Source: an uncultured Acetatifactor sp.
GTDB lineage: Bacteria > Bacillota > Clostridia > Lachnospirales > Lachnospiraceae
Direction: 5' to 3'
Assembly: GCA_934394665.1 (NCBI GenBank)
Contig: CAKRRS010000071.1
Location: forward strand, 1-14,764
DNA: 14,764 nucleotides
Both the position numbers and the translations under genes were made by a program. The notes beneath the pieces are model-generated. The model saw only the letters and a list, made by a program, of their open reading frames with translations, searched no databases and was not told the origin of the DNA. This document shows, one piece after another, positions 55 through 14,533 of this stretch; position 1 is the first letter of the stretch, and the number at the start of each line of letters is the position of its first letter.

Positions 55-114
55 CTATTTGAATACGTAAAATTGTTACCAACAATCCTTTTCATTTTTG
101 CAAAGGGGGATTCT

Positions 115-3100
115 ATGACAACTAACTTTGACTATTTAAAGCAAGAACCTAAATTTTCAACATTTGCAGATATTGCCATATCTGCTGAGAAAGTTATTTT
201 ATTGGATCCGGCGACGTGTATTCTTAACTGTCGTCGTGCTATGGAATCTGCCGTGAAGTGGATGTACTCTGTAGATAATGAATTGCAGATGCCGTATCAG
301 GATAATTTGCAGAGCCTTATAAATGCAGAAGAATATCGGCAAATCGTTGGACAAGATATTTGGAAACGAATGGATTATATTCGTTGCTGTGGTAACATTG
401 TTGCTCATACGACTAAAAAAATGAGTCGGGATGAGGCTATGCTTTGCCTGGAAAATCTTTTTATTTTCCTTGATTATGTTGCGTATTGCTATTCAGATCA
501 TTACGAAGAGCAAAACTTTAATAAAGAGTTGATTGCAGGTAGAATTGAAAAGGCAAAGCAATCTAAAAAAGAAACTGCAGAAATCAAAGAGAAATACGAA
601 AAAAATCAGCGGGAATTGGAAGAAAAAGAAATCAATCTTCAAAAGCTGATGAAAGAGAATGAATCTTTAAAAGAGGAATTATCGGCTAGAAGACAGGAGA
701 AAAAAGCTGGCTATATTCCTAAGCCGTTGGATTTATCGGAATATGATACAAGAAAATTATATATAGATGCAATGGTGATGGATGCCGGATGGAAAGAGGG
801 CAAGGATTGGCTGAATGAGGTAGCTATCCCGGGAATTCCGAGCAAATCAGGTAGTGGAAGGGCGGATTACGTTCTGTATGATGACAGAAACAGACCTTTA
901 GCAATTATAGAAGCAAAATCAACCGGAAGAGGAGTAGAAGAAGGTCGTTATCAGGCAAAAGTATATGCGGATGCATTGGAAAAAGAGTATCATCGTAGGC
1001 CAGTTGTATTCCTGACAAATGGATTTGAGACGCACATTATTGACGGACAGTATCCGCAGAGAAAATGTTCAGGTATTTATTCTAAGAGAGACCTGGAAAA
1101 GTGGTTTAATTTGCAGTCAATGAAAACCGGATTGAGCCATATTTTGGTGAACAAGGAAATAGCAGGACGTTATTATCAGGAAGAAGCAATCAAGAGGGTA
1201 TGTGAAAGCTTTGACCAGAAGAATCGTAGAAAAGCCTTGCTGGTAATGGCTACAGGAAGTGGTAAAACCAGAACGGTTATTGCTTTGTGTGATGTATTAT
1301 TAAAGGCAGGCTGGGTGAAGAATATACTTTTTCTGGCTGATAGGACGTCATTAGTTACACAGGCAAAGAGAAATTTTGTAAATCTGTTGCCGAGTTTGTC
1401 ATGCACAAATTTGGTAGAAGAAAAAGATAATTATTCTGCACATTGCGTATTTTCGACATATCAGACAATGATGAAATGCATTGATACAGTAAATGATAGT
1501 GAAGGAAAATTATTTACGTGTGGCCATTTTGATTTGCTGATTTGTGATGAAGCACATAGGTCTATTTATAACAAATATAGAGATATTTTCGATTATTTTG
1601 ATGCACCGTTAGTGGGATTGACTGCAACACCCAAAGATGAGATAGATAAGAATACATATGGTGTTTTTGAACTGGAAAATGGTGTTCCTACATATGGTTA
1701 TGATTTGGCACAGGCGGTTAAAGATGGTTATTTGGTGGATTATGTTTCGGTGGAAACAGAGCTAAAGTTTTTGACGCAGGGAATTGTATATGATGACTTA
1801 TCGGAAGAAGATAAGGAGGAATATGAAGAAAAATTCGCTACAGATGATGGAAATATGCCGGACAGTATAGAGGCATCCGCTTTAAATACATGGATATATA
1901 ATGAGGATACCATACGTCAGGTATTAAATATTCTGATGACAGAGGGAATTAAAATTGATTATGGACAGAAGATAGGAAAGACGATTATCTTTGCAAAAAA
2001 TCATGCACATGCAGAAAAAATTTTGGAAGTATTTAATAAAGAATATCCCAATTTAATAGGTTATGCAATGGTAATTGATAACCGTATGTCATATGCACAG
2101 AATGCAATAGATGAATTTTCGGATGCTAGGAAGTTGCCGCAGATTGCAATATCAGTAGATATGCTGGATACAGGCATAGATGTTCCGGAAGTGTTGAATC
2201 TGGTATTTTTCAAAAAGGTAATGAGTAAGGCGAAATTTTGGCAGATGATTGGTCGTGGAACCAGATTATGTCCGGGATTGTTGGACGGCGAGGATAAGTC
2301 AAAATTTTATATATTCGATTTTTGTGGAAATTTTGAATTTTTCCGGATCAATAAGGGAAAAGCAACTGCAAACATGATTGCTTTGCAGGGAGCTATCTTT
2401 AATTTACAGTTTGAGATGACCTACAAATTGCAGGCAGCAGAATTTCAGCAGAAACGCTTGATTGCCTATCGCAATCACTTAGTAGGGCAGATGGCAGGAA
2501 AAGTGCGCGAAATACCGAGGGATAATTTCGCTGTAAAGCAGCATTTAAAGTATGTGGAATTATATTCGATAGAGGATAATTATCAGTCATTAACATTTGA
2601 GGACACATTGACAGTAAAAGAGGAAGTAGCACCTTTGATATTGCCTGAAAAGGACGAGGTAAATGCAATTCGTTTTGACGCACTGATGTATGGAATAGAA
2701 TTGGCTTATTTACTTGGTGAAAAATATACCAGAGCAAGAGGTGATTTATTAAAGAAAGTAAATGGTATTGCAGGCGTAGCAAATATTCCTGAGATACAGG
2801 CGAAGACGGATCTAATCAATAAAATATTGCATACGGATTATGTTGAAACAGCAGATGTTGATGACTTTGAAAAGATACGTGAAGAATTACGAAATTTAAT
2901 GAAGTACATTCCGAAAAACGTAGTAAGATATGATACCAATTTTGAAGATGATATTCTTACAATTGAATGGAATGAGGCAGAATTGGATGATGATCAGCTG
3001 AAAAACTACAAAGCAAAGGCGGAATATTATATTCGTCAGCATCAGGATAATATTGCTATTGCAAAATTGAAAACGAACAAACCTCTAACCAGTACAGATG

Positions 3101-3459
3101 TGGATACATTAGAAGAGATTCTTTGGAAAGAGATTGGAACAAAGAAAGATTATGAAACAGAATATGGCGAAAAACCTTTAGGAGAATTTGTGAGGGAAAT
3201 CGTAGGTCTGGATATGAATGCTGCCAAAGAGGCTTTTTCGGAATATCTTAATGACACTAACATGGATAGTAGACAGATATATTTTGTGAACCAGATTGTC
3301 GAGTATATTGTTCACAATGGTATGCTGAAAGATTTATCTGTGCTTCAAGAATCTCCGTTTACAGATCAGGGAAGCATTGTGGAAATCTTTACAGATATGA
3401 CAGTGTGGATGGGGATAAAGAGTGTGATTGATAGAATCAACGCAAACGCAGTGGCGTAA
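115..3459 (+). CDS. hsdR: Type I restriction enzyme, R subunit (HsdR, EcoKI/EcoEI-like)
   Basis: This is the ATP-dependent translocase and nuclease subunit of a type I restriction-modification complex; with HsdM and HsdS it would cut DNA lacking the host methylation pattern. Seen in the 1114-residue product: an N-terminal DUF4145-like helical region (about 10-130), a charged coiled coil (about 140-195), a PD-(D/E)XK nuclease (D251, then E266-A-K268) with the QxxxY motif (Q280...Y284), Walker A ATGSGKT (379-385), DEAH box (478-481), motif III LTATP (502-506), GIDVPE (687-692) and motif VI QMIGRGTR (710-717), then a helical C-terminal domain of EcoEI_R_C type. Length fits the family. I chose ATG 115 because AAAGGGGGA lies just upstream; an in-frame TTG at 73 would add 14 residues but has no such site. 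All catalytic motifs are intact. No methylase or specificity gene is in the window, and the gene is AT-rich compared with the DNA right of 4069, suggesting acquisition. Confidence 0.93.
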   Translation: MTTNFDYLKQEPKFSTFADIAISAEKVILLDPATCILNCRRAMESAVKWMYSVDNELQMPYQDNLQSLINAEEYRQIVGQDIWKRMDYIRCCGNIVAHTTKKMSRDEAMLCLENLFIFLDYVAYCYSDHYEEQNFNKELIAGRIEKAKQSKKETAEIKEKYEKNQRELEEKEINLQKLMKENESLKEELSARRQEKKAGYIPKPLDLSEYDTRKLYIDAMVMDAGWKEGKDWLNEVAIPGIPSKSGSGRADYVLYDDRNRPLAIIEAKSTGRGVEEGRYQAKVYADALEKEYHRRPVVFLTNGFETHIIDGQYPQRKCSGIYSKRDLEKWFNLQSMKTGLSHILVNKEIAGRYYQEEAIKRVCESFDQKNRRKALLVMATGSGKTRTVIALCDVLLKAGWVKNILFLADRTSLVTQAKRNFVNLLPSLSCTNLVEEKDNYSAHCVFSTYQTMMKCIDTVNDSEGKLFTCGHFDLLICDEAHRSIYNKYRDIFDYFDAPLVGLTATPKDEIDKNTYGVFELENGVPTYGYDLAQAVKDGYLVDYVSVETELKFLTQGIVYDDLSEEDKEEYEEKFATDDGNMPDSIEASALNTWIYNEDTIRQVLNILMTEGIKIDYGQKIGKTIIFAKNHAHAEKILEVFNKEYPNLIGYAMVIDNRMSYAQNAIDEFSDARKLPQIAISVDMLDTGIDVPEVLNLVFFKKVMSKAKFWQMIGRGTRLCPGLLDGEDKSKFYIFDFCGNFEFFRINKGKATANMIALQGAIFNLQFEMTYKLQAAEFQQKRLIAYRNHLVGQMAGKVREIPRDNFAVKQHLKYVELYSIEDNYQSLTFEDTLTVKEEVAPLILPEKDEVNAIRFDALMYGIELAYLLGEKYTRARGDLLKKVNGIAGVANIPEIQAKTDLINKILHTDYVETADVDDFEKIREELRNLMKYIPKNVVRYDTNFEDDILTIEWNEAELDDDQLKNYKAKAEYYIRQHQDNIAIAKLKTNKPLTSTDVDTLEEILWKEIGTKKDYETEYGEKPLGEFVREIVGLDMNAAKEAFSEYLNDTNMDSRQIYFVNQIVEYIVHNGMLKDLSVLQESPFTDQGSIVEIFTDMTVWMGIKSVIDRINANAVA

Positions 3460-8925: not shown

Positions 8926-9125
8926 AAAAACGATATATGCAGAGAAAATGCCTCATTGCAGAAAAATTTTTGTATATATTTTGTAGCGATTCAAAGTTTG
9001 ACAGGTATCATTAAATGTTCGTTGGGTGCAGTATTCGTAAGAAAGTTTGATGATGCTCATAAGACTGAGGGAACTTTGGATGTAAACAGTTCACAAGAGG
9101 GACAAACATGTTTGGAGGAAGATGG

Positions 9126-9761
9126 ATGGATACTTTTATGGATAAACTTGCACAAAAGCTCAATGCGCAGGAAATGATCAAAGCGAATTCCGCAGCGGAT
9201 GCGGAAGAGATGGATCAGTTGAAGAGCCAGTTGCGGGAATACGATGAATGTCTGGCGCAGATGCAGCAGGTTAATAAGGAACTGAAGGCAATCAATCAGG
9301 AGATGGAGCGCCTGATGGCTGAGACCATTGCTCCGGAAGTGACAAAGCTGTCCGAAGAAGGTGCGGCAGCTATGATCAGACTGAAAGAGGAGAGCGCAGC
9401 TGTCCTGAACAAGCAACAGGAGGAAAATACTGCTAAGTTACAGGAACTTGTGCAGGAGTACACGGCGAAGCTGGAAGCGATTCAGCAGAGCACCGAGGCA
9501 CTTGAAGAACTGAAAAATCATCTTGATGAAAAGCTGAATAACGGTGAAGAGAGCGTCCATAAGGAATGCGTCAAAGTATACCGCAACGTACAGGCTGCCG
9601 TAGTTGAGGAAAATGAAAAGCAGACCGAAGCAGTGGTAGCCGGTATCAAGGCAGGACTGAACGGAAAACTGAACGGTGTCATGGGTGTGTCCATTGCGGC
9701 ATTGGTAGTTGCGATTGCGGATGTGGTAATCCATGTACTGAATATCCTTCATGTCTTTTAA
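9126..9761 (+). CDS. Predicted tail-anchored coiled-coil protein of unknown function
   Basis: I do not recognise a named family. The 211-residue product (from ATG 9126) is Glu/Gln/Ala/Lys-rich and looks alpha-helical and coiled-coil from about residue 15 to 175, with no prolines after residue 70. It ends in a single hydrophobic helix (about 186-210) followed by nothing, so it is probably anchored in the membrane by its C-terminus with the coiled coil in the cytoplasm. A first helix with MDKLAQKLNAQEMIKAN is followed by an acidic stretch. I prefer the ATG at 9126 because GGAGGA lies six bases before it; an in-frame ATG at 9108 (GAGGGA upstream) would add MFGGRW. It probably has its own transcript from the promoter at 8897-8925. 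A scaffold or division-related role is conceivable but not shown. Confidence 0.72.
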   Translation: MDTFMDKLAQKLNAQEMIKANSAADAEEMDQLKSQLREYDECLAQMQQVNKELKAINQEMERLMAETIAPEVTKLSEEGAAAMIRLKEESAAVLNKQQEENTAKLQELVQEYTAKLEAIQQSTEALEELKNHLDEKLNNGEESVHKECVKVYRNVQAAVVEENEKQTEAVVAGIKAGLNGKLNGVMGVSIAALVVAIADVVIHVLNILHVF

Positions 9762-11211: not shown

Positions 11212-12402
11212 TTAGAGAAAACGTCCCCGTTTGATGGCGTCTTTGCCGTATTTTGTGCGGATGTCATCCAGTGCGGCATCGAGTTTTTTCTGTTTTTCGG
11301 AGCGCGGCGCCGCAAAGTCGAAGAGGCTGAGTTGGACCGGTTCGTCTTCCGGTACAAGTTTCGAAGTACGGACGCCCAACAGGCGGATCGGCGAAGCGTC
11401 CCACAGTTCGTCAAACAGGGCACAGGCATTTTCATACAGAAGGTTCACGGAAGCAGTGGGCACGTCTAACGGCATCTGGTGAGAAACATTCCGGAAATCA
11501 CTGTAACGTATTTCCGTACAAATCTGTCCTGCCAGTTTGTGAGACGCGCGTAAACGCCTGCCTACGGATTCACAGAGGGACAGCAGTACTTTGTAGGCTT
11601 CTTCTTTGGTCAGAGCGTCGTTGCCAAGCGTCGTCGAATTGCCGATTCCTTTTGCTTCGGAACGCTCCACCGTTACCGTGGAAGGATCAATGCCGTTGGC
11701 ATATTGCCACAGGCTGCGACCGTGACTTTTCAGGTGTGCTTCCAGAATCGAGGGATCAGTACATGCAAGGTCACCGATGGTGAGAATCCCAAGCTTGTGA
11801 AGGGTTTCGGCACTGGAACGCCCACAGGTGAACAGATCCGATACGGGGAGCGGCCACATCTTCTGTCTAATCTCTCTATAATATAAGGTATGTGTCTTAT
11901 CCGGTTTTTCAAAATCCGAAGCCATCTTGGCCAGTACTTTTCGATCGGAAATCCCCACATTTACAGTAAATTGAAATTTTTCAAATACGGAGCTCCGGAT
12001 ATATGCGGCAGCTGCTTCGGGAGAAGCGTAATTCCCGGCAATGGGCGTATAGTCCATGTAACATTCGTCGATGCTGACCTGTTCGATATCGGGACAGATA
12101 GCGGAGAGGTGTTCCATAAGCTGCCGGCTCTTTTCTCGGTACATATTATGATTCGGAGCAGCCATGACCAGATTCGGACATTTGCGCAGGGCATTGACCA
12201 CAGGCTCACCGGTGGTGATTCCAAAGGCTTTGGCAGGGATGGATTTGGCCAGGACGATACCGTGACGGGTGGAAGTGTCGCCGCCGACAATCGCCGGAAT
12301 GGTGCGCAGATCCACAGAATTGCCCTGCTGCAGCTTATCCAGAGCCGTCCAGCTTAAAAAAGCGGAATTCACATCAATATGAAATATGATCGGGTCGTTC
12401 AC
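11212..12402 (-). CDS. dinB: Y-family DNA polymerase (DNA polymerase IV, DinB type)
   Basis: A translesion DNA polymerase of 396 residues. Seen: HIDVNSAF with catalytic D10 and probable steric-gate F15, the second catalytic site SIDE (110-113, D112/E113), a helix-hairpin-helix region (CGRSSAETLHKLGILTIGDLA, about 193-213), a little-finger domain (about 245-350) and a C-terminal beta-clamp-binding motif QLSLFDF (357-363). The start is a GTG, supported by AAGGAGG (12416-12410) seven bases upstream; no ATG fits better. An extended -10 promoter lies directly upstream. I see no LexA box near that promoter, so SOS control is not evident. The gene converges with the XRE-cupin gene. Confidence 0.93.
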   Translation of the reverse strand: MNDPIIFHIDVNSAFLSWTALDKLQQGNSVDLRTIPAIVGGDTSTRHGIVLAKSIPAKAFGITTGEPVVNALRKCPNLVMAAPNHNMYREKSRQLMEHLSAICPDIEQVSIDECYMDYTPIAGNYASPEAAAAYIRSSVFEKFQFTVNVGISDRKVLAKMASDFEKPDKTHTLYYREIRQKMWPLPVSDLFTCGRSSAETLHKLGILTIGDLACTDPSILEAHLKSHGRSLWQYANGIDPSTVTVERSEAKGIGNSTTLGNDALTKEEAYKVLLSLCESVGRRLRASHKLAGQICTEIRYSDFRNVSHQMPLDVPTASVNLLYENACALFDELWDASPIRLLGVRTSKLVPEDEPVQLSLFDFAAPRSEKQKKLDAALDDIRTKYGKDAIKRGRFL

Positions 12403-12434
12403 GCGGCGTCCTCCTTTCCGTTTCTTTTACGCTC

Positions 12435-12443
12435 ATTATATCA
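12435..12443 (-). promoter_or_regulatory. Extended -10 promoter of dinB
   Basis: On the minus strand TGATATAAT (12443-12435) is a full extended -10 motif. It lies 32 bp before the GTG start, so the leader would be about 25 nt and include the AAGGAGG site. No good -35 is present, as is allowed for extended -10 promoters. The box is inside the first copy of the direct repeat. Confidence 0.6.
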
Positions 12444-12489
12444 CGATTCGCATCTTCGATGCTCTACGCTGCGTTGCAGCTATCGTGAT
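12440..12489. repeat. Branched inverted repeat with two inner hairpins
   Basis: ATCACGAT (12440-12447) pairs with ATCGTGAT (12482-12489). Inside sit two further perfect hairpins: GCATC-TTC-GATGC (12450-12462) and GCTGC-GTT-GCAGC (12468-12480). Together they make a three-way junction in RNA or single-stranded DNA. Confidence 0.6.
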
Positions 12490-12503
12490 CTAATTCGCCG
12501 TTC

Positions 12504-12531
12504 GCCAGAAATCTGCCAGCAGCTTTCTGGC
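12504..12531. repeat. Long hairpin
   Basis: GCCAGAAA (12504-12511) pairs with TTTCTGGC (12524-12531), and inside it CTGC pairs with GCAG (12513-12516 with 12519-12522), leaving one mismatch. It is followed immediately by the second direct repeat. Confidence 0.6.
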
Positions 12532-12565
12532 TCTCTTGCGCTCATTATATCATAAGCTTGCAGTG

Positions 12566-12610
12566 CATCCCGGAAACACGTTGTGTTCCCGGGATGTCCG
12601 GGCTTCGCCC
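12566..12610. repeat. Two GC-rich hairpins with three-base loops
   Basis: The first is a 14-position stem, 12566-12579 with 12583-12596 (CATCCCGG...CCGGGATG), with loop GTT and one A-C mismatch that becomes G-U on the minus strand. The second is GGGC-TTC-GCCC (12600-12610). On the minus strand it contains GCGAAGC, a sequence known to form an unusually stable DNA mini-hairpin. Confidence 0.65.
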
Positions 12611-12623
12611 TATTGTCCCCACA

Positions 12624-12677
12624 TATTACACAATATTGCCTGCAAGCAGTCATATTGTGTAATACGTGTGACCACAC
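12624..12677. repeat. 13-bp perfect inverted repeat plus small hairpin
   Basis: TATTACACAATAT (12624-12636) pairs perfectly with ATATTGTGTAATA (12652-12664). The 15-base interval contains a nested CTGC-AA-GCAG hairpin (12640-12649). Directly after it, GTGTG-AC-CACAC (12666-12677) forms another short palindrome. No T-tract follows, so this is not a terminator. Confidence 0.7.
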
Positions 12678-12736
12678 TGCTCATTGCCTACGCTCATTAT
12701 ATCACAACAATTCGCAAAAAGAACATATATTCTTTC

Positions 12737-12765
12737 TTTACAAGGTATATAAATGCTGTTAGAAT
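12737..12765 (+). promoter_or_regulatory. Promoter of the LysM-G5-M23 peptidase gene
   Basis: TTTACA (12737-12742) and TAGAAT (12760-12765) are 17 bp apart. Transcription would start near 12772, leaving a leader of about 175 nt. In that leader I see one weak hairpin (CAGT..GCC with GGC..ACTG, near 12892-12916) and no known riboswitch. Confidence 0.65.
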
Positions 12766-12946: not shown

Positions 12947-14533
12947 ATGAAGAAACTGACAGCTTACTCTAAAAGAGTAAAATATACATATGTGAAAACG
13001 ACGCTGGCAACACTTTTTGTGAGCCTGTTTTTCCTGAAAGGATATGCTGCGTTTGAAAAAACCGGAGAGAATTATTTTCATGTGTTCTTGAATGGCAATG
13101 AGATCGGAACGGTCGGCGAGGCCGACAGAGCGGAGCAGCTTTTACAGGAAGCCAGAAGAAATATTGCCTCCCAGAGCGATGATATGATTTTCATGGATGC
13201 GGATCTGAAATTGGTCGGCGAGGAAGTACTGTGGGGCACGCTTGATAACGAGGATTCCATGCTGGCGGGAATGGAGAGAGAACTGGAAAGCAGCATTCGT
13301 GAGACTTCCCACAGGTCTTATACCATGAAAGTGAATGAATACATGGTCAACCTGGCAAGTGTGGAGGAAGTCAAATCTCTCCTGCAGGCGGCTGTGGACA
13401 AATATGATACCGAAGGGAAATTCAGCGTGGATCTGATGCATGATGCGCAGAAGGAATTTAACGTGCTGACCACGGAAGTCGTGAACAGGCAGGAGCTGAC
13501 TGCACAGGAGGAACAGAAGGAAGAAGCCATCTATGCGGGCGGTGTGCAGACAGCACTGGATCAGGCAGGTTCCCAGGCAGAGCAGCAGGGCGAGAAGGAT
13601 TTCGAGGATTATGATCTGGGTCTGATGACCATGGATTTTGCGGAAAAAGTGGAAATCGTTGAGACCTATCTGCCCGAGAGTATGTTGACACCGTTAGATC
13701 AGGCTGTGGAAGATGTGATCAAGGATCAGGAGACACCCGGAGAGTATGAAGTAGTCAGCGGTGATACCCTGTCCGAGATTTCTATTAAGGTCAATATTCC
13801 TATCGATCAGATCATTGCCATGAACAGCGAGACACTGACGGACGAGAATTCCACGATCCGTGTAGGGGACAAGCTGATCATTACCGTGCCGGAACCGGAG
13901 CTGTCCGTAGAACGTATGGAACAGAATTATTATGAAGAAATCTATGATGCGGACGTAATTTACGTGGATAATGATTCCTGGTATACGACGCAGACGAAGA
14001 TTTTGCAGCAGCCTTCGGCAGGATTCCGCCGTGTGGTTGCGGATGTTTCTTATCTGAATGACAGAGAAGTCACGAGAGATATTTTAAAAGAAGAAGTAGT
14101 CATGGAGGCAGTTCCCAAGATTGTGGAGCGCGGTACCAAGATTCCTCCTACCTATATCAAGCCGATTTCCGGCGGCCGACAGACTTCCGGTTTCGGACGC
14201 AGAAAAGCACCGACCAAGGGAGCCAGCAGCTATCATAAGGGTGTGGATTGGTCAGTTCCTACCGGAACTGCAGTATTTGCATCCTGTGGCGGAACAGTTG
14301 CCAAAGCCGGATGGGGAAGCGGATACGGATATTGTGTCTACATCAACCACGAGGACGGCAGACAGACCAGGTACGGACACCTGAGCAAGGTGTTAGTAAA
14401 AGCGGGACAGACGGTAAAACAGGGAGAACGTATTGCACTGAGCGGTAACACCGGCGTAAGTACGGGACCTCATCTTCACTTTGAGATCCTGATTAACGGC
14501 AGCCAGGTGAACCCGTTAAAATACCTGAATTAG
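12947..14533 (+). CDS. LysM-G5-M23 cell-wall metallopeptidase
   Basis: A predicted peptidoglycan hydrolase of 528 residues acting outside the cytoplasmic membrane. A basic N-terminus and hydrophobic helix (about 16-35) form a signal peptide or signal anchor. A roughly 200-residue region without a clear named domain follows, with Glu/Gln-rich sequence at 180-220. Then come LysM (about 267-315, EYEVVSGDTLSEIS...IRVGDKLIIT), which binds glycan chains, and G5 (about 323-400), often found in wall-binding proteins. Last is a C-terminal M23/LytM domain with zinc ligands H430, D434 and H511 (HLHFE) and the assisting histidines H478 and H509, so it should be active. GAAGGA lies six bases before the ATG. 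It stands just upstream of murA; SpoIIQ-type M23 proteins also occur near murA in Bacillus, but this architecture differs, so I do not assign a sporulation role. Confidence 0.9.
   Translation: MKKLTAYSKRVKYTYVKTTLATLFVSLFFLKGYAAFEKTGENYFHVFLNGNEIGTVGEADRAEQLLQEARRNIASQSDDMIFMDADLKLVGEEVLWGTLDNEDSMLAGMERELESSIRETSHRSYTMKVNEYMVNLASVEEVKSLLQAAVDKYDTEGKFSVDLMHDAQKEFNVLTTEVVNRQELTAQEEQKEEAIYAGGVQTALDQAGSQAEQQGEKDFEDYDLGLMTMDFAEKVEIVETYLPESMLTPLDQAVEDVIKDQETPGEYEVVSGDTLSEISIKVNIPIDQIIAMNSETLTDENSTIRVGDKLIITVPEPELSVERMEQNYYEEIYDADVIYVDNDSWYTTQTKILQQPSAGFRRVVADVSYLNDREVTRDILKEEVVMEAVPKIVERGTKIPPTYIKPISGGRQTSGFGRRKAPTKGASSYHKGVDWSVPTGTAVFASCGGTVAKAGWGSGYGYCVYINHEDGRQTRYGHLSKVLVKAGQTVKQGERIALSGNTGVSTGPHLHFEILINGSQVNPLKYLN

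Follow-up and report, generated by a model that had tools for sequence, protein, structure and literature searches.

Short hairpin-rich modules placed 3' of TATAAT-like boxes, from the dinB promoter of an Acetatifactor to dispersed sites in Lachnospiraceae: probable non-autonomous mobile units

The 14,764-nucleotide stretch of DNA from an uncultured Acetatifactor sp. analysed here (hereafter, the window) carries a dinB gene preceded by three identical promoter-like boxes separated by sequences that mostly consist of hairpins. How did a single gene come to be preceded by three such boxes, and do these boxes derive from the promoter of the host or from elements that spread? Our analysis indicates that this segment most probably consists of two short hairpin-rich modules, one of type A and one of type B, which belong to a family of non-autonomous mobile units spreading in Lachnospiraceae and placed 3' of a TATAAT-like hexamer. 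Promoter-bearing non-autonomous repeats are a kind of element already known, and these modules are a variant of it.

Three boxes and two modules upstream of dinB

The dinB gene (11212–12402, minus strand) starts with GTG and encodes a protein of 396 aa identified with Pfam as a Y-family DNA polymerase. Upstream of it, CGCTCATTATATCA is present on the plus strand as three exact copies, at 12430–12443, 12539–12552 and 12691–12704, as an earlier note on this DNA had claimed. The window harbours no further match to it with up to 2 mismatches, and 200 dinucleotide shuffles contain a mean of 0.17 copies, none of them reaching 3. On the strand of dinB (minus), every copy reads TGATATAATGAGCG, and the claim that each is an extended -10 is exact, since this is a perfect TGnTATAAT. 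In the proximal box (12430–12443), the TATAAT hexamer (12435–12440) lies 32 nt before the dinB start codon, and GGAAAGGAGG (12410–12419, minus strand), probably the dinB ribosome-binding site judging from its sequence, sits between this hexamer and the GTG. The hexamers of the middle box (12539–12552) and of the distal box (12691–12704), which is the left junction of the array, are located at 12544–12549 and 12696–12701, respectively. A scan for TTGACA/TATAAT pairs on the minus strand between 12300 and 12960 finds none, so that the boxes of the window are devoid of a good -35.

Read on the minus strand, the boxes split the region into a module A of 152 bp (12544–12695, GAGCGTAGGC...TTATGATATAAT) and a module B of 109 bp (12435–12543, GAGCGCAAGAGA...TCGTGATATAAT), both of which have dispersed relatives. 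Each module is taken here to start at the first base after one TATAAT and to finish with the last base of the following one, the shared hexamer keeping the insertion point ambiguous. The last ~20 bp of module A in the window may belong to the left end of module B, since A-type copies found at two other loci (L081 and L095) end in CACTGC and not in TATAAT.

The region had also been described as packed with hairpins, and it does contain four inverted-repeat pairs of 13–17 nt, both modules being mostly hairpin. Module A includes a long hairpin recognized from its inverted repeat and from folds (12620–12668, with 17-nt arms at 12620–12636 and 12652–12668) and a second long one recognized from its inverted repeat (12566–12596, 14-nt arms). 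Module B includes a left hairpin (12504–12531), whose stem displays compensatory changes among 13 B and E copies, and a right structure (12435–12494) made of two small hairpins within an outer stem that reaches into the TGATATAAT box. When folded as a single strand, the region is far more stable on the minus strand than 200 shuffles (z -8.3 as DNA and -7.9 as RNA, vs -6.2 for the plus-strand RNA). Two mechanically called frames with GTG/TTG starts, of 65 and 105 aa, run across the array. A CRISPR array was ruled out, as both spacers have dispersed relatives in other genomes, and no plasmid match was found to the array of the window or to a B+C array. Elsewhere in the window, positions 73–3459 encode a type I restriction R-like protein with an N-terminal DUF4145 and an EcoEI_R_C domain; neither an S nor an M gene was seen among the window ORFs scanned.

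The earlier note had proposed to align the dinB upstream regions of relatives in search of an empty site with one box. The two closest dinB loci, L001 (88% identity) and L002 (87%), provide it: they harbour no module at dinB and a single extended -10, TGCTATACT, and their genomes carry both module types A and B elsewhere. Once deprived of its modules, the window aligns upstream with L001 and L002, and TGATATAAT falls on TGCTATACT in both alignment modes; downstream, a GTAAA..AAACG stretch is common to the window and L002 in one alignment mode, the end being gapped differently in the other. As both outer flanks are native by homology, the distal (12691) and proximal (12430) copies correspond to one ancestral -10. 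The idea that the first copy sits where dinB's own promoter should be has to be amended in that the distal and proximal copies represent this -10 jointly. The exact 14-mer of the box is absent from dinB in all 80 dinB loci compared (in L058 it occurs 2 kb downstream of the gene). None of the 80 dinB upstream stretches compared, each of at most 400 nt, contains TGATATAATGA, even when 1 mismatch is allowed. The segment is thus not kept at the same place in all relatives; such conservation had been named beforehand as part of what would refute the claim. Modules being absent at the dinB of relatives, the array is a lineage-specific gain at the native -10.

LexA control of dinB was considered and rejected: a CGAAC-N4-GTTCG-like site with up to 2 mismatches is found in 5 of the 80 upstream regions vs about 2.5 in shuffles. 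Upstream of the native promoter, such a site has 2 mismatches in L001 and L002 and 3 in the window. A GAAY-N4-RTTC-like site, which resembles a LexA site and shows no enrichment over the 80 loci, is seen at 12720–12733 of the window and in L001 and L002, between the divergent dinB and M23 genes. A possible promoter of this divergent LysM/G5/M23 gene (12947–14533), TTTACA-17-TAGAAT, lies at 12737–12765 on the plus strand (1 found, 1.4 expected in shuffles).

A family of modules dispersed in Lachnospiraceae

The search of the array against other Lachnospiraceae genomes, suggested in the same note, reveals dispersed matches. The array of the window matches 11 places in Lachnospiraceae bacterium GAM79 (G002), 3 in G001 and none in G003, i.e. 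two of these three genomes, and it has matches in 8 of 61 genomes around GAM79, GAM79 included. Five module types, A to E, can be distinguished, with sizes ranging from 70 to 152 bp (C, 125 bp; D, 70 bp; E, 79–81 bp). Types B, C and E usually end in the extended -10 TGATATAAT and D in CGATATAAT, which is devoid of the TG, and several copies display decayed right-end boxes such as TATATT, TATAGT or TATACA. Among 10 modules, no terminal inverted repeats were found (the longest inverted end run is 2–6 nt, within the range of shuffles) and the longest ATG frame is 36 aa. Like Correia-like MITEs, the modules are short (70–152 bp), non-coding, multi-copy and, according to filled and empty sites, mobile.

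At the scale of the family, the exact 14-mer is found at 93 sites in 44 of 299 genomes (GAM79 included), the reversed control being found at 2. As a native promoter without module can hold much of the box, for example TACATGATATAATGAGC at 1529878 in GAM79 (L111), some of these 93 sites may be plain promoters. Eight neighbouring pairs of the 14-mer, in 5 genomes, are 81, 110 (three times), 111, 112, 148 and 154 bp apart, which resembles the lengths of modules E, B and A as judged from spacing alone. Modules of various types were also read side by side at individual loci, in mixed arrays (C-B-D, B-D, B-C, C-B and D-B) and in chimeras that join the left half of one type to the right half of another (2864229 in GAM79; L406). 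In addition, positions 3595650–3595930 of GAM79 carry at least three head-to-tail units with a period of 112, related to the right half of module A and located upstream of a mechanical ORF.

No viral contig matches two long B-type patterns. The bare 14-mer gives at least 120 rows in the viral collection, which we take as chance in so large a collection; among the 80 viral contigs listed, 3 have CAA or TAA after the 14-mer, one of which (L356) is a B-type module. The matches from the phage collection are unannotated human fecal scaffolds, of which L095–L098, L405 and L406 were read. L405 and L406, labelled as bacteriophage from human feces, resemble a bacterial chromosome by their reading frames and carry arrays with at least three boxes. 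A further repeat, F, is present in three human fecal scaffolds (L096, L097 and L098), and its two inner hairpins match those of module B (window 12448–12481, 34 nt, 94%); in L097, repeat F has inverted TTACAGTTCAC sequences at its ends, as an ordinary MITE would. This hairpin pair seems common to unlike elements. In Hominisplanchenecus faecis, a hairpin repeat that resembles F and has TAGAGCCA/TGGCTCTA as inverted ends (L074, 4823–4965, coordinates by eye) is found directly upstream of dinB (5001), which makes it a second, different element near a dinB promoter.

The modules are oriented towards genes. In GAM79, where 35 BLAST rows were grouped to 20 element sites (2.8 of 4.08 Mb covered, ORFs called mechanically; a weak 29-bp row at 230206, E 0.005, and a hairpin reverse-arm row at 2533831 being dropped), 16 of the 20 sites have an ORF of at least 100 aa starting within 120 nt downstream in the direction of the box. 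Such an ORF is present downstream only at 13 sites, on both sides at 3, on the reverse side only at 0 and on neither side at 4 (13 vs 0, p 2.4e-4). Such a bias would be produced by selection for promoters, and equally by the targeting of oriented -10 boxes.

The boxes found on the host side and those at the right end of modules differ in quality. The best match to a -35 has a mean of 3.14 out of 6 for 22 host-side boxes (two of which, L058 and L067, are orthologous) vs 2.45 for the background (P 0.001), and of 2.08 vs the same background for 12 right-end boxes, which are devoid of -35. Only 4 of the 22 host-side boxes, two of them orthologous, have a 5–6/6 match to TTGACA, and the distal box of the window has 2/6. 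Therefore, some host boxes belong to a full promoter, and the box brought by the module is at best an extended -10 without -35. Host-side boxes are not all promoters, and L106 and L089 seem, by eye, to lie at the 3' end of an upstream ORF. As host boxes were gathered largely by searches with the box or the left end, their match to TATAAT is not independent evidence.

Filled and empty sites and the origin of the boxes

The cleanest evidence for insertion comes from one orthologous promoter found in five species (L058, L065, L066, L067 and L073), all of which share a conserved TTGAG(A/G)-17-TATAAT. The sequence is GTATGATATAAT|AGG in L065 vs GTATGATATAAT|79 bp|AGG in L058, without any other loss or gain of sequence; the insert is a type E module ending in TTCATGATATAAT, located exactly 3' of the native TTGAGA-17-TATAAT and bringing a new TATAAT at its own end. 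L067 carries a C-like module after the box, and L066 and L073 carry shorter remnants. The sequence following the box in L065, AAAAACAAGC, may itself be a remnant of C, so that L065 is empty for E and not surely for all modules. In the window, positions 9108–9761 encode a protein without Pfam match. Judging from its start region only, this protein appears orthologous to the one encoded downstream of the L058 promoter that received module E; its own upstream region in the window shows no TGATATAAT.

Other sites differ between GAM79 and G001. At 1.26 Mb, D is alone in G001 and is accompanied by B, at its left box, in GAM79; another site harbours B in G001 and B+C in GAM79, C being directly after the TATAAT of B. 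At 2.864 Mb, the site is filled in GAM79 and reads TGATGATAAG in G001. At 2.855 Mb, a C-B-D array in GAM79 corresponds to a plain promoter in G001, whose -10 is aligned with the last box. At 9313, 2719711 and C29 of G001 (L086), one genome has a short intergenic gap and the other has a module there; two of these gaps are devoid of a TATAAT-like hexamer by eye and the third (L284) has GATATATGAG. As the sequence around the module also differs at 2.855 Mb, 9313, 2719711 and C29, those pairs are less clean. A-type sequence is present in both genomes at 3.399 Mb, and at 776 kb the G001 site (L084) is too different from that of GAM79 to be compared. Some of the filled/empty pairs could be deletions.

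The mechanism that we propose would be the following. A module would insert in a single orientation, immediately 3' of a TATAAT-like hexamer that in some cases is the -10 of an existing promoter. Since types B to E terminate in (T/C)GATATAAT, the insertion would keep the old box at the left and add a new one at the right; this new box would in turn be a target, so that repeated insertion would lead to arrays with one box per junction. At dinB, two insertions into an ancestral promoter with one TGATATAATGAGCG-like box would have given the three boxes. Two readings had been offered in the earlier note, and they describe a single process, since a TATAAT-like site precedes the modules and another forms the end of most types. 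The first, in which two insertions into the dinB promoter leave a box at each junction, fits the module-free sites of L001 and L002, and the origin that it gives to the boxes is putative. The second, in which each module carries a promoter box and spreads, agrees with the dispersed copies, the mixed arrays and the filled/empty pairs; firing of the boxes is putative.

The right-hand boxes could alternatively be host DNA, if the elements duplicate a TATAAT-like target of 6–10 bp and have no promoter box of their own. We consider this unlikely, even though it would give the same picture at L058/L065, at dinB and at the B|C sites, and even though the box ATnATATnAT comes close to a palindrome, a property of some targets. 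Indeed, the right-end TGATA pairs and co-varies with the left stem arm of the module itself, and so looks like module DNA; the left and right boxes of one copy are often unlike; and the modules have no terminal inverted repeats and, by eye, a single orientation. The covariation was examined in 13 aligned B and E copies, for which RNAalifold gives 21 pairs. Ten of the 21 have changes on both sides with pairing kept; 95.5% of cells pair vs 85.9% in shuffles and double changes affect 32 cells vs 10.8, a number reached by none of 500 shuffles, although relatedness among the copies inflates these counts. The signal collapses in slid versions of the alignment, and the number of further pair types is not above that of shuffles (435/500 as high). 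The two co-varying helices are the subterminal hairpins at both ends, and the right one takes in the TGATA of the box, so that the right box is counted as module DNA. TATAAT stands as a direct repeat at both module ends, and its right copy continues into a stem of the module that co-varies.

Strong stems with compensatory changes, a sense strand more stable than the antisense one relative to shuffles and some G-U pairs on the sense strand are also what would be expected of conserved structured RNA leaders or small RNAs retained for regulation instead of spreading. That explanation is improbable: the presence of modules varies among close species, several types share sites, the downstream reading frames, which are unannotated, are unlike each other by eye, and the window has no Rfam match above the gathering score (a weak-threshold scan gives one match only, to a miRNA family, E 4.4). 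The direct repeats within one intergenic region might also suggest that the dinB promoter was duplicated in tandem on the spot and that the copies then diverged. This is hardly credible, since the two spacers do not resemble each other and relatives of each are found at different loci of other genomes.

Relationships with known elements and possible consequences

According to the descriptions consulted (PMC10969869, PMC2229807), the Correia elements or NEMIS of Neisseria are dispersed elements of about 100–155 bp found upstream of genes and carrying sigma70-like promoters. The modules, too, are short, dispersed and located upstream of genes with promoter-like boxes. However, Correia elements are described with 24-bp terminal inverted repeats and a target duplication (PMC2229807), whereas the modules have no terminal inverted repeats, a single orientation and box-to-box arrays of several types. 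The REP/REPIN, as presented in the cited accounts, are dispersed intergenic palindromes thought to move in trans (PMC3733652; see also PMC3116915 and PMC8266576), REPs being palindromes of 20–40 bp, most of them with a GTAG or CGTC tag. The modules are likewise dispersed, palindromic and intergenic and would also be moved by an enzyme acting in trans, but unlike REPs as so described they reach 70–152 bp and have at least 2 hairpins and a promoter-like end.

ISDra2, of the IS200/IS605 group, is reported to insert 3' of TTGAT and to act on single strands (PMC2806898). Similarly, the modules are found 3' of a fixed hexamer kept at the left, in one orientation by eye, and have hairpins near both ends; TATAAT precedes the left end of the module at dinB, at L058 and at the B|C sites, where a 6-bp target duplication would look alike. 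Unlike IS200/IS605 elements, the modules contain no transposase gene. A Y1 transposase was tried as partner and rejected. It had seemed to fit in 12 picked genomes (7 of 8 with modules or boxes vs 1 of 4 without), but across 299 genomes Y1_Tnp is not associated with the box, being present in 25 of the 44 genomes that have it vs 150 of the 255 others (Fisher p 0.87). The nearest Y1/box pair among the matches listed is ~52 kb apart by eye (G284 C2). As no partner enzyme was found for the modules and Y1_Tnp is unassociated, we do not claim that they belong to IS200/IS605.

There is a slim chance that the modules, as single-stranded DNA, target the -10 and are inserted by an enzyme, of IS200/IS605 or other type, 3' of TATAAT in the non-template strand of the open promoter complex. 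As the right end is itself TATAAT, such an insertion would keep the promoter alive, move its start and offer a new target, and the promoter would grow a chain of starts. If so, the modules would be mobile elements whose target is the initiation of transcription. More generally, whichever enzyme moves them, TATAAT^GAGCG...TGATATAAT provides a sequence handle to search for it.

In the open-access literature that was searched, we found no family of repeats whose members lie at a -10 box, carry a -10-like box at their own end and form arrays joined at these boxes, with a distribution that covers a major gut family. Putative mobile promoters, i.e. promoters that spread between genes, were reportedly described by Matus-Garcia et al. 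in 2012, and the modules share this idea with them. If their boxes fire, the modules add promoters inside gene clusters, three cases being located in short gaps between genes. At dinB, up to three tandem starts would be expected, two with structured leaders and the proximal one with a short plain leader. By changing dinB expression, the modules could thus set the level of an error-prone polymerase in the strains that carry them.
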